Source: Bradyrhizobium algeriense (GTDB taxonomy: Bacteria > Pseudomonadota > Alphaproteobacteria > Rhizobiales > Xanthobacteraceae). Taken from it: a stretch of 64,000 nucleotides of DNA. Positions 28,280 to 33,299 of the stretch are shown piece after piece. Below the pieces are notes generated by a model, which saw nothing but the letters and a program-made list of their open reading frames with translations, searched no databases and had not been told where the DNA came from. The stretch is from NCBI RefSeq assembly GCF_003062295.1, contig NZ_PYCN01000004.1:124001-188000 (forward strand), read 5' to 3'. Position 1 is the first letter of the stretch, and every line of letters starts with the position of its first letter. The translations under genes and the position numbers were made by a program.

Positions 28280-29497
28280 CTATAGCGCTTCCGCCGCGTC
28301 ATGCACATAGAGCCAGCCGATATTGGCGATCGAGCGGTCGCCGGACGCGGCCAGCGCCTCGTCGCGGGCGCGTTGCGCTTCGCCGTCGGGCAGATGGAAG
28401 CGGCTGCGGTTGGCGGCACTCGCCTCCTGCAGTTTCGTGGCGCGCGGCTTGCGCACCGCCTCATAGCGTGCCAGCGCGCTCGCGATGTCGTCGGGCATGG
28501 CCTTAAGAAGCGTTGCGAGCGCGGCGCCGTCCTCGATCGATTGCGCGGCGCCCTGCGCCATCATGGGCAACATGGGATGGCAGGCGTCGCCCAGGAGCGT
28601 GACACGACCGGCGCTCCAGCACGGCAGCTCGGCGCGATCGTGCAGCGCCCAAATGAAGGTCTGTGGAAAGGCGCTGATCAGGCTGCGTACCATCGGATGC
28701 CAGCCCTCATAGCGCGCGAGCACATCGGCTACCTCGCCTTTGTCTGTCCAGGACTCCCGTGTCCAGTCGCCGTGCTCGACGACGCAGACGACGTTCATCA
28801 TCCGCCCGCCCGAGACCCAGTAGTGCACGACATGGCCGTCCGGTCCCAGCCAGCAATACGAAACAATCTCAAAGCCGAGATGCCTGATGCGCTCGGCCGG
28901 AACCAACCCGCGCCAAGCGACGCAACCGGTGAAGCGCGGCTTCTCGGGACCGAAGACGAATTCCCGCACGCGTGAATGGATGCCGTCGGCGCCGACCAGG
29001 AGGTCAGCTTCCGCAGTCGCGCCGTTTTCGAACCGCGCAATCACGCGCTCGCCCTTCTGCTCCAACCCTGTGAGCTTGTGACCGACATGCAAACGCTCTT
29101 GCGGCAGCGCGTCGGCCAGAAGATTTACAAGGTCCGCGCGATGGAAGTGGTAGTACGGCGCGCCGAAGGCAGCCTCGACCTCAGGCCCGAGTGGAGCGCG
29201 CTGCAAGATGCGTCCATCGTCCCAGCGCCGCTGATGCACCGCGCGTGGCCGTGTGCCGAAGGCGTCCATCGCGGCCCGGAGGCCCAGCCGCAGCAGGATC
29301 CGAGAGGCGTTGGGGCTGATCTGGATGCCTGCGCCGATTTCGGCGATGTGCGGCGCCTGCTCATAGACGTGAACGTCGAGCCCCACCTGAAGGAGCTGCA
29401 GCGCCGCCGAAAGCCCGCCGATGCCGCCGCCGATAATTGCGACTTTCATGGGAACTGTTTTGGACCGCGAATCTGTTTGAGCATAGGCGTCGGGCAT
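28280..29497 (-). CDS. FAD-dependent monooxygenase (salicylate hydroxylase-like)
   Basis: A class A flavoprotein hydroxylase of about 405 residues: the FAD-binding GGGIGGLSAALQL near residue 20, the LVGADGIHSRVR block (DG motif) and the second FAD site GDACHPMLPMMAQGA. It ends near WLYVHDAAEAL. Such enzymes hydroxylate aromatic rings using NAD(P)H and oxygen, for example salicylate or 6-hydroxynicotinate. The ATG at 29497 (MPDAYAQ) has an AGAAGAG site; the ATG at 29449, directly before the FAD motif, is an alternative. It lies about 100 nt after the alcohol-oxidation genes on the same strand. Confidence 0.87.
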   Translation of the reverse strand: MPDAYAQTDSRSKTVPMKVAIIGGGIGGLSAALQLLQVGLDVHVYEQAPHIAEIGAGIQISPNASRILLRLGLRAAMDAFGTRPRAVHQRRWDDGRILQRAPLGPEVEAAFGAPYYHFHRADLVNLLADALPQERLHVGHKLTGLEQKGERVIARFENGATAEADLLVGADGIHSRVREFVFGPEKPRFTGCVAWRGLVPAERIRHLGFEIVSYCWLGPDGHVVHYWVSGGRMMNVVCVVEHGDWTRESWTDKGEVADVLARYEGWHPMVRSLISAFPQTFIWALHDRAELPCWSAGRVTLLGDACHPMLPMMAQGAAQSIEDGAALATLLKAMPDDIASALARYEAVRKPRATKLQEASAANRSRFHLPDGEAQRARDEALAASGDRSIANIGWLYVHDAAEAL

Positions 29498-29600
29498 CGC
29501 GCACTCTTCTACCTGGCAGGCTGGCGTTACCGCATTGTTCGCCAAAATCCCGGCAGTTGTGAGATCACAGGAGCGCGAGCCTTCGGATCCGGATCATGCC

Positions 29601-30248
29601 CTAATCCCTGGCTCGCAATATGCTGATCCGCGTTTCATCGACGAAACTCTTGATGTCCTGATCGGGCCGGCGGAACAGACTGCGTTCGACAATGAGCGAA
29701 CGGCCGGCGACCGTCTTGGTGCAGCGTTCCCTGAGATAGACGCCACCCACCGGCTGGTCTCCTGCTTCGGGCCGACCTTCACTGCACGTCCAGCCTTCCG
29801 GGCCGTAGCGCGATTTGGCCTGTAGCCCCAGGAGAAACGCCTTCTTGCGGATATAGAGCCGCGCCTTCGGATCGGTCTCGATCTGCAAACCGGCGACATG
29901 GCCGGTATCGTCGATCAGCAAGGTCAGGATCGCGGGATGACCCGCCACCATCGTGCCGTCGCGGCTGGTCGATGGATCGTAGCCAAATCGGATCGCCCGC
30001 GTTCCGCTCGCGTCGGCAGGACAGTCACGCCAGTTCTTCCAGCCAGCCAACGTTCGCTTCTCTTCCGCCGCGCAAGAGAAGTCGACATAGCCGGACTCCG
30101 CCAATTCGGCCGCAGCCATTCCGAGGCGAATGTCGCGCAGATCGTTGCCGCCGAACTCTTCCGCCCGTGCCGGAGAGTGCGCAAGTGCGACGGACTGCCA
30201 GGCAAGCAGGCCTGCGGCAAGAACTCCCGATAGCGTCAGTCTGTCCAT
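29601..30248 (-). CDS. Unknown secreted protein coupled to cytochrome c
   Basis: The 215-residue protein has a signal peptide (MDRLTLSGVLAAGLLAWQSVALA) and four Cys in the mature chain (FSCAA, RDCPA, WTCSE, RERCTK), probably two disulfides. No heme or metal motif is visible and no family was recognised. Its ATG shares the last A of the cytochrome c stop codon (TGATG), so translation is coupled. The position at the end of the PQQ dehydrogenase-cytochrome set suggests a periplasmic accessory or maturation factor for that enzyme; this is inference from context only. Confidence 0.65.
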   Translation of the reverse strand: MDRLTLSGVLAAGLLAWQSVALAHSPARAEEFGGNDLRDIRLGMAAAELAESGYVDFSCAAEEKRTLAGWKNWRDCPADASGTRAIRFGYDPSTSRDGTMVAGHPAILTLLIDDTGHVAGLQIETDPKARLYIRKKAFLLGLQAKSRYGPEGWTCSEGRPEAGDQPVGGVYLRERCTKTVAGRSLIVERSLFRRPDQDIKSFVDETRISILRARD

Positions 30249-30814
30249 CACTGGCCCTTCCCCGTGCTGGCGGTCGTATGATCCGGCTGCTGAGTCTTGT
30301 AGACGTCGCAGACCCGCGACGTGCTCGAGAAGAAAGCGACGCATTCCGCGTAAGTGGGTTCGCCGGCTCCCTTGATGTGGGCGATCACGTAATCGGCGAC
30401 GGCTTCGATATCTTTCGGCCGCAGGAACGTTGCACCCTCGGGCGGTATCTGTGCCCCCGCATCCTGGCGGTTCATGCCGTGGCATTTCACCTCATCGTAG
30501 CCGCCGCGTATAAAGAACGGCATCCCCGTGCCCGGCCGCCCGCAGCCGACGGTTTCAATGATCTGATCCCGCGTCAGCTCGGTCTTGCGCAGCGACAGCG
30601 CATCGCCGCCATAGCCGCCGCCGCCATTGCCGTGCCATTTGTGACAGCCCACGCAGTTTGCGCGACTGAATACCGCCTTGCCGGCATTGGTCGGGTCCGA
30701 GGCCGGCGGCTGCGCCGACTGACCGCAGGCAGCGGCTAGCATCGAAAAATTCAGGGCGACGACGCTCGCGAGCAGCACGCCCGCACGCGCCGCTAGTCTG
30801 TTGAAGATCATCAT
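30248..30814 (-). CDS. Periplasmic c-type cytochrome, partner of the PQQ dehydrogenase
   Basis: The 188-residue protein carries a signal peptide (cleavage near residue 29) and one heme site, CVGCH at 54-58. A GTGMPF segment near 96-101 provides the likely axial Met. Four further Cys (91, 111, 148, 159) may form disulfides. The C-terminal KDIEAVADYVIAHIKG is the usual last helix of class I cytochromes. It should take electrons from the PQQ dehydrogenase encoded 59 nt upstream and pass them to the oxidase. The ATG at 30814 precedes the signal peptide; the longer frame to 30946 overlaps the dehydrogenase gene. Confidence 0.85.
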   Translation of the reverse strand: MMIFNRLAARAGVLLASVVALNFSMLAAACGQSAQPPASDPTNAGKAVFSRANCVGCHKWHGNGGGGYGGDALSLRKTELTRDQIIETVGCGRPGTGMPFFIRGGYDEVKCHGMNRQDAGAQIPPEGATFLRPKDIEAVADYVIAHIKGAGEPTYAECVAFFSSTSRVCDVYKTQQPDHTTASTGKGQ

Positions 30815-30873: not shown

Positions 30874-32661
30874 TCAGAGCGAGAATACGTAGAGCATCGA
30901 TCCCGGCTGTATTTTCTTCAGTTCGGGCGTCGAATCGATGAACCACTTGTCCCAGGCGCCGCCCAGGCCGACCAGAATGGCGATGTACTGCTTGCCATCG
31001 ACCGTAAAGGTCATCGGCGGTGCGTTGACGCCGCCGCCCGTGTTGAACTCCCAGAGCTTCTGCAATGACTTGGCGTCAAGCGCATGCACTTCGCCGGATG
31101 GCTGACCGGTGAAGACGAGATCGGGAGTCGCAAGCATGCCGCCCAGATTGGGGAACGGCGTTTCCATTTTGCCGGCTATCTTGCCGGTCGTTACATCGAT
31201 CGCCGTCACGCTGCCGGTGATCTTGAACGGCTGGCTCGGGCCGCCGCCGGTCCAGAACTCCCGCGGTTTCAGTTTGTCCGGCGTCATCACCTCCACCTTG
31301 ATGCGATTGCAGCTCTCGATTACCGGGATGTACCAGAGCTTCAGATCCGGATTGTAGGCCGTCGGCGGCCAGTTCTTGCCGCCCATGTTGCCGGGGCAGA
31401 TATCGGTTTCCATGTTGGTGCGGCTTGGCGTCACCGACGCGATATAGGTCTGCACGGACTTGTTCGGGTCATACTCGATCGGCTTGCCGCTCTCCGGGTC
31501 GAGCCCCTTGGTCCATGTGACTTTCTTCACGAACGGAAGGCCCCAGACGAACTTGCCGTTGGTGCGATCGATCGCATAGGCGAAGCCGTTGCGGTCCGCT
31601 TCGAGCGCGAGCTTCCGCGGACCACTGGGCCCGGGGACATCGACCAGCACGTTTTCCGCCACGCTGTCATAGTCATAGGGGTCATTTGGTGTGTGCTGAT
31701 AGTGCCACTTGATCTTGCCGGTCGTGGCATCGAGCGCCAGCGAGCTGTCGGTGTAAAGGTTGTCGCCCGGCCGATATTCATTATCCCAGTCCGGTCCGGG
31801 ATTGCCGATGCCCCAGATGATGGTGTCGGTTGCGGGATCGTAGGTGCCGGTCACCCAGGTCGAACCGCCGCCGGCCGCAGCCGCGTTGTTGCTGTCTTTC
31901 CAGGTTTCGCTGCCGGGCTCGCCCTTGCCCGGGATCGTGTGGGTGCGCCAGACCTCCTTCTGGGTCGCCAGATCAGTTGCGGCGATCCAGCCACGGATGC
32001 CGTACTCTGCGCCGGCCACGCCTGTTATCGCCATGTTCTTGACGATCAACGGCGCGCCGGTGATGACCTCACCCTTGTCCGGATCGGCCACATTACGCTG
32101 CCAGGCGACCTGGCCGGTTTCCTTGTTGGTCGCGATCAGCCGTCCATCCAGCGTATGGGAAATGACGAGATCGCCCCACAAAGCGACGCCGCGGTTATCG
32201 ACGCCGCAACACGCCACCGCACCAGCCCAGTCACGGTCCGTCTTGGGATCCATCTTCCAGACCAGCACGCCGCGGCCGCCATGCGCGTCGATCTTGTAGA
32301 CCGAACCCCATCCATCGGTGACGTAGAGGAAGCCGTTCTCGGCAATCGGCGTGCCTTCGAGCCCGCCATGGCTCCAGATGCCGCCGCCTTCGATACCGCC
32401 GAGATGCATGGTCCAGGCGACCTTCAGGTTCTTCACGTTATCGCGGTTGACCTCCTTCAGCGTGGAGAACCGGTGAGCCGCGTAATTCTGATGATGATGA
32501 AGCCAGTTGCCCGGCTCCTTGTCGACGTTGAGCAGCCGTTCCTGATTGACCTGGTCTGCAGCGGAGACTGTCAGTGCGCCCATCACGCTTGCGGCAGCAC
32601 CTGCTACGACAAGCAGACAAGCTCGCGTCAACATTTTTGTGTGACCTGAAGATCGCTCCAT
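30874..32661 (-). CDS. PQQ-dependent alcohol dehydrogenase, lanthanide-type signature
   Basis: At 595 residues this is a full-length quinoprotein alcohol dehydrogenase. It has a signal peptide (cleavage near VSAADQ), the eight-bladed propeller with repeated W-motifs, the vicinal disulfide pair Cys151-Cys152 (VACCGVDN) next to PQQ, and DPYDYDS. In the last, Asp330 is the catalytic base and Asp332 is the extra acidic residue that marks lanthanide-dependent enzymes (XoxF, ExaF, PedH); calcium enzymes such as MxaF have Ala there. Substrate (methanol, ethanol or other alcohols) cannot be settled here. GGGAGG lies 9 nt before the ATG at 32661. The cytochrome gene follows. Confidence 0.92.
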   Translation of the reverse strand: MERSSGHTKMLTRACLLVVAGAAASVMGALTVSAADQVNQERLLNVDKEPGNWLHHHQNYAAHRFSTLKEVNRDNVKNLKVAWTMHLGGIEGGGIWSHGGLEGTPIAENGFLYVTDGWGSVYKIDAHGGRGVLVWKMDPKTDRDWAGAVACCGVDNRGVALWGDLVISHTLDGRLIATNKETGQVAWQRNVADPDKGEVITGAPLIVKNMAITGVAGAEYGIRGWIAATDLATQKEVWRTHTIPGKGEPGSETWKDSNNAAAAGGGSTWVTGTYDPATDTIIWGIGNPGPDWDNEYRPGDNLYTDSSLALDATTGKIKWHYQHTPNDPYDYDSVAENVLVDVPGPSGPRKLALEADRNGFAYAIDRTNGKFVWGLPFVKKVTWTKGLDPESGKPIEYDPNKSVQTYIASVTPSRTNMETDICPGNMGGKNWPPTAYNPDLKLWYIPVIESCNRIKVEVMTPDKLKPREFWTGGGPSQPFKITGSVTAIDVTTGKIAGKMETPFPNLGGMLATPDLVFTGQPSGEVHALDAKSLQKLWEFNTGGGVNAPPMTFTVDGKQYIAILVGLGGAWDKWFIDSTPELKKIQPGSMLYVFSL

Positions 32662-32783: not shown

Positions 32784-33299
32784 TCACGGCGTTCGTGAAA
32801 CCTGCACCTCCGTTTCCTTGGTTCCGGCTTTCTGGAAAACGACGGCGCATGTAAACGTCTCGCCGTCGAGGAGCTTCTGCCGCGTCTGCAGCAGCATCAC
32901 GTGATAGCCGTCGTGCTTGAGTTCGATCGTCTTGCTCTCCGGGATCGGAATGGACTTGATCTCGCGCATGGCGGGCGCGCCTTCGCCGCGATCGACGGTG
33001 TGCTTTACAGCGAAATTCGCAAACGGACAGCGGACGCGCAGGATCGCGTCGGCTTCGGCCGCATCGTTTCTGATCGTCATCAGCAGCGGGAGATCGATAC
33101 CAATCTCGTCGGACGCGGGCACCCGCGCGCTCGTCACCTGCAGTGCGTCGCCGGCAGCAGCGAAACCGGGCGTCAGCCCAAGTCCAGCGCCAAGGCCGGC
33201 AACCAGTCCGAGCGCGAGAAACCGGGATCTGCCGGGCAGCGCAGCCCACCCTGCCCGATCAAGCGCACCATCAAGGCTCGATGTCGCTATGGCGGTCAT
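32784..33299 (-). CDS. PCu(A)C-type copper chaperone
   Basis: The 171-residue protein has a signal or anchor region near residues 20-48 and a cupredoxin-like domain typical of PCu(A)C (DUF461). The motifs are LPLLMTIRNDAAEADAIL, RCPFANFAVKH, and the C-terminal copper-site block KTIELKHDGYHVMLL with His and Met (HxM). The family delivers Cu(I) to cytochrome oxidase or other periplasmic targets. The start is at 33299 or a later in-frame codon. It lies about 120 nt upstream of the PQQ dehydrogenase on the same strand, so copper supply to the terminal oxidase used by this chain is plausible. Confidence 0.8.
   Translation of the reverse strand: MTAIATSSLDGALDRAGWAALPGRSRFLALGLVAGLGAGLGLTPGFAAAGDALQVTSARVPASDEIGIDLPLLMTIRNDAAEADAILRVRCPFANFAVKHTVDRGEGAPAMREIKSIPIPESKTIELKHDGYHVMLLQTRQKLLDGETFTCAVVFQKAGTKETEVQVSRTP

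Follow-up and report, generated by a model that had tools for sequence, protein, structure and literature searches.

How rare-earth-dependent PQQ dehydrogenases acquire their cofactor and metal in the periplasm is unsettled even for XoxF. The literature account presents the roles of XoxJ, MxaJ and PedG as proposals, in which XoxJ and MxaJ bind a partly folded apo-enzyme so that PQQ and metal can be inserted (PMC12997753). These proteins, represented here by the model TIGR03871, are exported and encoded beside a PQQ dehydrogenase. The Pseudomonas ped cluster contains a pentapeptide-repeat protein, PedD, and truncating it in P. putida U is reported to impair growth on alcohols (PMC12997753). Conserved hypothetical proteins of about 110–130 aa, co-located with Ln-type dehydrogenases, are described for XoxF3 systems in a further paper (PMC10875860).

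We describe a family of predicted exported proteins with four invariant cysteines (four-Cys proteins), which, save for a few cases, accompanies one branch of lanthanide-type dehydrogenases and probably assists in producing or operating those enzymes. Like XoxJ, MxaJ and PedG, its members are encoded beside a PQQ dehydrogenase, and in their case beside its cytochrome as well; unlike them, they have an unrelated sequence and, in the 30 genomes compared, never occur at the same dehydrogenase as a TIGR03871 gene, whether counted within 3 kb or within 5 kb. The XoxF3-associated hypothetical proteins are likewise nameless, but their described length sets them apart from the four-Cys family (202–267 aa in 41 named representatives), and the dehydrogenase studied here is nearer to PedH than to XoxF among solved structures. 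We rate the four-Cys protein as a new family within an established class, that of quinoprotein accessory factors. A nameless partner spread across a dehydrogenase clade in which XoxJ-type proteins are absent would offer a second, independent system in which to address PQQ and metal loading.

The cassette and its four-Cys gene

The window is the whole stretch of DNA that was analysed, 64,000 nucleotides of Bradyrhizobium algeriense (contig NZ_PYCN01000004.1, positions 124,001 to 188,000). Along its minus strand lie, in order, genes for a PCu(A)C copper chaperone, a PQQ dehydrogenase, a cytochrome c and the four-Cys protein:

32784..33299, minus strand: PCu(A)C-type copper chaperone with an intact H-x10-M-x21-H-x-M, first cassette gene in Bradyrhizobium (Pfam PF04314 and motif)
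30874..32661, minus strand: PQQ-dependent alcohol dehydrogenase, 595 aa, putatively lanthanide-type (Asp330-Tyr-Asp332), with adjacent CysCys (TIGR03075; PedH 6zcw with aligned DxD)
30248..30814, minus strand: c-type cytochrome of the periplasm, 188 aa with a single CxxCH, probably the electron acceptor (scores over the Pfam cut-offs of Cytochrome_CBB3 and Cytochrom_C)
30246..30250, minus strand: TGATG, in which the cytochrome stop overlaps the four-Cys start (translational coupling; read directly)
29601..30248, minus strand: four-Cys protein, predicted to be exported, 215 aa (ORF and overlap, four invariant Cys, no named family)

The four-Cys ORF opens with an ATG at 30248-30246 and its stop ends at 29601. 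Within TGATG, the TGA closes the cytochrome c ORF and the ATG opens the four-Cys ORF. A longer in-frame mechanical ORF extends upstream of this ATG, to 30485; close homologues begin at the same overlapping ATG. Compared with five close homologues, the gene changes mostly at codon position 3 (e.g. 18/13/43), which argues that it is real, and this pattern together with its conservation rules out a chance ORF. The overlap with the cytochrome gene is conserved, being present in 67 of the 78 four-Cys genes measured (39 at -4, 20 at -1), a count in which the scripted choice of start favours an ATG with a ribosome site, so that its safer part is the 59 of 78 cases at -4 or -1. One member, at L109:6499-7007 in G681, is split over two frames by a frameshift or a sequencing error.

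Cys59, Cys76, Cys155 and Cys176 are invariant in all 42 aligned members, and further near-invariant residues of this alignment cluster around GHP, DP, RYG--GWxC and VGG. The cysteines could form disulphides, most simply 59-76 and 155-176. In the predicted model, a hydrophobic helix occupies residues 6-23 and the confidence around it is low, which fits a signal peptide; the protein is presumably exported, as read from this start. The earlier note had described an unrecognised four-Cys secreted protein with a TGATG overlap; the ORF, the four cysteines and the overlap were confirmed, and the start resembles a signal peptide.

The copper chaperone gene stands first in almost all of the Bradyrhizobium cassettes among the 80 named loci described below, and its H-x10-M-x21-H-x-M is what we take to be the PCu(A)C motif. 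One possibility is that it would supply copper to a terminal oxidase fed by the cytochrome. A PCu(A)C chaperone also lies near the cassette in Methylobacterium, Hyphomicrobium and Beijerinckia loci (L175-L177). An FAD monooxygenase gene (28280-29545) was considered as a cassette member and rejected, with no alignment above 45% identity in 34 neighbourhoods.

Family identity and predicted fold

Searches of Pfam, NCBIfam and PHROGs up to E = 1 and of PDB sequences up to E = 10 yielded no match for the four-Cys protein of the window, and a profile of the family found no PDB chain. The absence of a named family, as put forward from the sequence, thus holds for these four collections. Weak Pfam or NCBIfam matches in one or two of the 42 members (the best being DUF6965, E = 2e-4, in two) were judged spurious. 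No description of the protein was returned by a literature search made chiefly outside subscription journals and over titles and abstract openings. The family, covered by no Pfam or NCBIfam model, could be named.

Among the matches of the 42 members up to E = 0.1 there was neither TIGR03871 (the MoxJ/XoxJ/PedG-type model) nor a Pfam EF-hand of the kind expected for a lanmodulin-like protein. These results bear on the idea that the four-Cys protein binds the substrate alcohol or a lanthanide and delivers it to the dehydrogenase. Such a role would suit the signal-peptide-like start and the operon linkage, and clusters of this type do hold other exported binding proteins; we nonetheless consider it very unlikely, given that no EF-hand, binding-protein or other credible domain was matched and that, in our reading, the invariant residues form no obvious metal-binding cluster.

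Structure models were predicted for the window protein (mean pLDDT 90) and for a distant member (81), and the fold is mainly an antiparallel sheet plus helices. Foldseek gave no match at E ≤ 0.001 (best E 0.08), and no structural match was decisive for a function. The top four VIA-align entries for both models were 4ygt (DUF4309), 4h0a and 4ifa (SCP-type proteins) and 1vr8 (TM1622), all with Z below 8 and with 2-12% identity in these rows: the first model aligned to 4ygt with Z 6.8 (4.9 Å over 127 residues), and the second to 1vr8 and 4ifa with Z 6.2. Mog1 and PsbP came further down both rankings, at Z of about 4-5. The likeness to DUF4309, SCP-associated domains, Mog1 and PsbP, which are among the best alignments of both models, may reflect nothing beyond a common arrangement, and families outside the Foldseek and VIA-align listings are candidates too.

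Association with one branch of PQQ dehydrogenases

The window dehydrogenase scored 534.3 bits against TIGR03075 (cut-off 480.05). Its best PDB relative was PedH (6zcw), to whose DxD Asp330 and Asp332 align; the rare-earth-binding aspartates of PedH are Asp323 and Asp325 (PMC11845868). The second Asp was present in 142 of the 142 dehydrogenase alignments that cover the site in the fetched loci (six more lacked coverage), a count that covers four-Cys loci and is no contrast with Ca-type enzymes. This extra active-site Asp supports the lanthanide-type label that the earlier note had implied for the partner enzyme.

The four-Cys family is sparsely distributed. Matches were found in 11 of the 41 relatives, a fragment in one case, in 19 of 296 family genomes and in at least 9 of 385 class genomes, where the best seven candidates were scored per genome; one of these nine (G355) matched at E = 2.6e-4 and contains stops. 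A named scan, from which 80 of 94 loci were kept, returned mostly Bradyrhizobium, along with Tardiphaga, Methylobacterium oryzihabitans, Beijerinckia, Hyphomicrobium, Roseicella, Acetobacteraceae, Rhodospirillales and one MAG labelled Terriglobia. A plasmid-borne element was considered and rejected, as the four-Cys gene had no plasmid match.

Wherever the gene occurs, a PQQ dehydrogenase is usually beside it: in 78 of the 80 named loci (L173 and L183 are both cut by contig ends), in 32 of 34 neighbourhoods (the exceptions being L049, a remnant, and L072, limited by contig ends) and in 15 of 17 class-level loci (all except L094 and L103). These three sets overlap, and together they amount to 125 of 131 fetched loci with a PQQ dehydrogenase, some of them partial at a contig end. 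L094 still sits in a PQQ alcohol dehydrogenase cluster, with TIGR03863 and TIGR03866 above cut-off. L103 (G411:C8:83590-84324) has no dehydrogenase within 6 kb and, by eye, no PQQ-linked neighbour. In eight genomes, 23 of 26 four-Cys copies lay within 2 kb of a TIGR03075 match, where 0.9 would be expected, and in 22 further genomes 29 of 32 copies lay within 2 kb of a dehydrogenase; the three misses were G738:C5 at 4.1 kb, G735:C148 beside an omitted partial dehydrogenase, and G735:C175 with none on its contig. Pairs within 2.5 kb were on the same strand in 117 of 122 cases. The association of the four-Cys protein with PQQ dehydrogenases is strong, and the reverse pattern, homologues mainly away from such enzymes, is the opposite of what was found.

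The cytochrome c gene also adjoins the four-Cys gene in most of the 80 named loci, as an immediate neighbour that overlaps it in most cases measured, and the window cytochrome carries four cysteines besides CxxCH, its leader Cys not counted. The four-Cys protein could on these grounds be a folding or disulphide partner of this cysteine-rich c-type cytochrome rather than of the dehydrogenase. Yet its cysteines are far apart and form no CxxC redox motif, and the dehydrogenase is the steadier companion at class level, where a window-like cytochrome on either strand was found in at least ten of the 17 loci by a one-query tblastn. We therefore regard the cytochrome as an improbable client.

Presence and absence across genomes follow the same line. 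Within the set of 41 relatives, an intact four-Cys gene and a dehydrogenase of at least 72% identity mark exactly the same ten genomes. Relatives that lack the gene carry as many as 12 PQQ dehydrogenase matches (G015). The eleventh relative, G019, carries fragments of the dehydrogenase and four-Cys genes joined by a deletion. At this locus (L049:5992-6363), the last ~44 codons of the four-Cys gene follow on the first 76 of the dehydrogenase, the cytochrome has been lost, and the copper chaperone is kept. In the 296 family genomes, a four-Cys gene was found in 19 of the 20 with a dehydrogenase at E ≤ 1e-125, a threshold picked after the comparison of the 41 relatives, vs 0 of the 276 others among the matches listed. 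The best four dehydrogenase candidates and up to ten four-Cys candidates were scored per genome, and the four-Cys search used a single protein query, not a profile. In the exception, the one-contig genome G095, the dehydrogenase falls in the clade described below and the four-Cys profile A1 finds no match; as a control, A1 found all of eight other genomes, a weak one since these had been chosen for having the gene. The four-Cys protein thus comes close to being obligatory without being strictly so. The view of it as a candidate accessory factor of the PQQ dehydrogenase, for which co-occurrence with lanthanide-type dehydrogenases had been suggested as a check, gains support from this linkage and co-occurrence.

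A FastTree tree of 105 dehydrogenases, non-redundant at 85%, placed 46 of the 47 four-Cys-linked enzymes in one clade of 74 tips with local support 1.0. The lone linked enzyme outside it, in L167 at 6029, has its four-Cys gene in common with an enzyme of the clade. The clade also holds 28 of the 47 dehydrogenases with neither factor within 3 kb, which come from genomes sampled for having the gene and so are not independent evidence, and none of the 11 XoxJ-type-linked ones. Where an intact four-Cys gene is missing, the best dehydrogenase lies outside the clade in all 20 relatives placed; a twenty-first, G029, has a weak match alone and was left unplaced in the tree.

Partner and enzyme diverge together. 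Four-Cys and dehydrogenase distances are correlated (r = 0.86 over 104 pairs), as they are among the paralogues of G411 and G697 (r = 0.83, 11 pairs, 0 of 2000 permutations) and those of G061 and G119 (r = 0.88, 7 pairs, 1 of 2000 permutations). This correlated divergence is what would be expected if the four-Cys protein were a permanent extra subunit or docking protein easing electron transfer from PQQ to the cytochrome. The frequent overlap of the four-Cys start with the cytochrome stop points the same way, as does L063, a cluster with the dehydrogenase, cytochrome and four-Cys genes each present twice. Nevertheless, there are three-dehydrogenase arrays with one four-Cys gene (L065, L095), and several loci keep the dehydrogenase and the four-Cys gene with no window-like cytochrome beside them on the same strand. 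The 28 of 74 clade tips without a four-Cys gene within 3 kb likewise better suit a reusable factor, and we consider a fixed subunit rather unlikely.

Some genomes are rich in these enzymes. The 6.1-Mb genome G061 (L065, L068, L069, L071, L231-L247) has 34 TIGR03075 matches, many of which belong to the four-Cys clade, and only five four-Cys genes. G411 and G697 are of ~2.5 Mb each; with partial TIGR03075 matches counted, G411 has 20 of them and nine four-Cys genes, and G697 has 17 and five.

XoxJ-type proteins, pentapeptide repeats and a putative function

Many genomes with a four-Cys gene also carry TIGR03871 genes, placed at other dehydrogenases. In eight genomes, namely those with TIGR03075 places out of the 12 covered for TIGR03871, the 72 dehydrogenases comprised 25 with a four-Cys gene within 3 kb, 8 with a TIGR03871 gene, none with both and 39 with neither. 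For 143 dehydrogenases in 22 genomes, the corresponding numbers were 30, 25, 0 and 88. The 30 genomes together gave 55, 33, 0 and 127 among 215 dehydrogenases (one-sided Fisher 2.2e-5, a value that ignores relatedness), and at 5 kb there was likewise no dehydrogenase with both. TIGR03871 was unmatched in seven of the 30 genomes at the limits used, and it misses some distant binding proteins: it found none in G737, a genome in which tblastn revealed such proteins next to two dehydrogenases (L264, L265), neither of which has a four-Cys gene. A tblastn search with nine XoxJ-type binding proteins matched in none of the 131 four-Cys loci. The exclusion may be explained by the ancestry of the two dehydrogenase branches alone. 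Neither factor lies within 3 kb of 127 of the 215 dehydrogenases, so these enzymes do not always require a partner encoded nearby; this is a point against the reading that follows, as are the 28 unlinked clade tips and G095.

Based on these patterns, we tentatively favour, at somewhat less than an even chance, a four-Cys protein that serves one dehydrogenase clade as its own periplasmic accessory factor, likeliest acting in maturation or activation and standing in for XoxJ. Its constancy with the dehydrogenase, the absence of XoxJ/PedG-type genes at its loci and the single copy per array in L065 and L095 together argue moderately for a reusable factor over a fixed subunit. Its synthesis would be coordinated with that of the cytochrome c, the electron acceptor of the dehydrogenase, and the protein would be exported and oxidised to a compact disulphide-bonded domain. 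It would then act on the dehydrogenase or on the dehydrogenase-cytochrome complex, most likely by holding the apo-dehydrogenase during PQQ and metal insertion. This putative maturation role is the job proposed for XoxJ, MxaJ and PedG, and here it would fall to an unrelated protein. If so, the four-Cys protein might also matter for making such dehydrogenases in other hosts, which is speculation.

The PENTAPEPTIDE link concerns four-Cys genes fused to or beside a pentapeptide-repeat protein, which was the case in 14 of the 27 loci examined, most of them distant. Three four-Cys domains of G411 and G697 (L097, L098, L102) run into a pentapeptide-repeat domain with CxxCDL at its start; the repeats were confirmed by Pfam for L098 and L102, where they are limited to the fused C-terminal part. 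Eleven more of the 27 loci have a separate pentapeptide-repeat gene nearby by repeat pattern, with Pfam confirmation for L094 and L100. No pentapeptide-repeat gene was seen in the window cassette, and the window four-Cys protein has no Pfam match to such repeats, unlike PedD. PedD resembles the family in that it is small, exported and part of a cluster for a PQQ alcohol dehydrogenase, and distant four-Cys domains are fused or next to CxxCDL repeats; repeat type and place suggest that these neighbours are relatives of PedD. It is possible, though we doubt it more than we believe it, that in this large clade of lanthanide-type enzymes a non-homologous activator has replaced XoxJ/PedG and would load PQQ and the rare earth with the help of a PedD-type scaffold, so that two systems divide the dehydrogenase family. 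Long open frames at three four-Cys copies of G738 may be further fusions.
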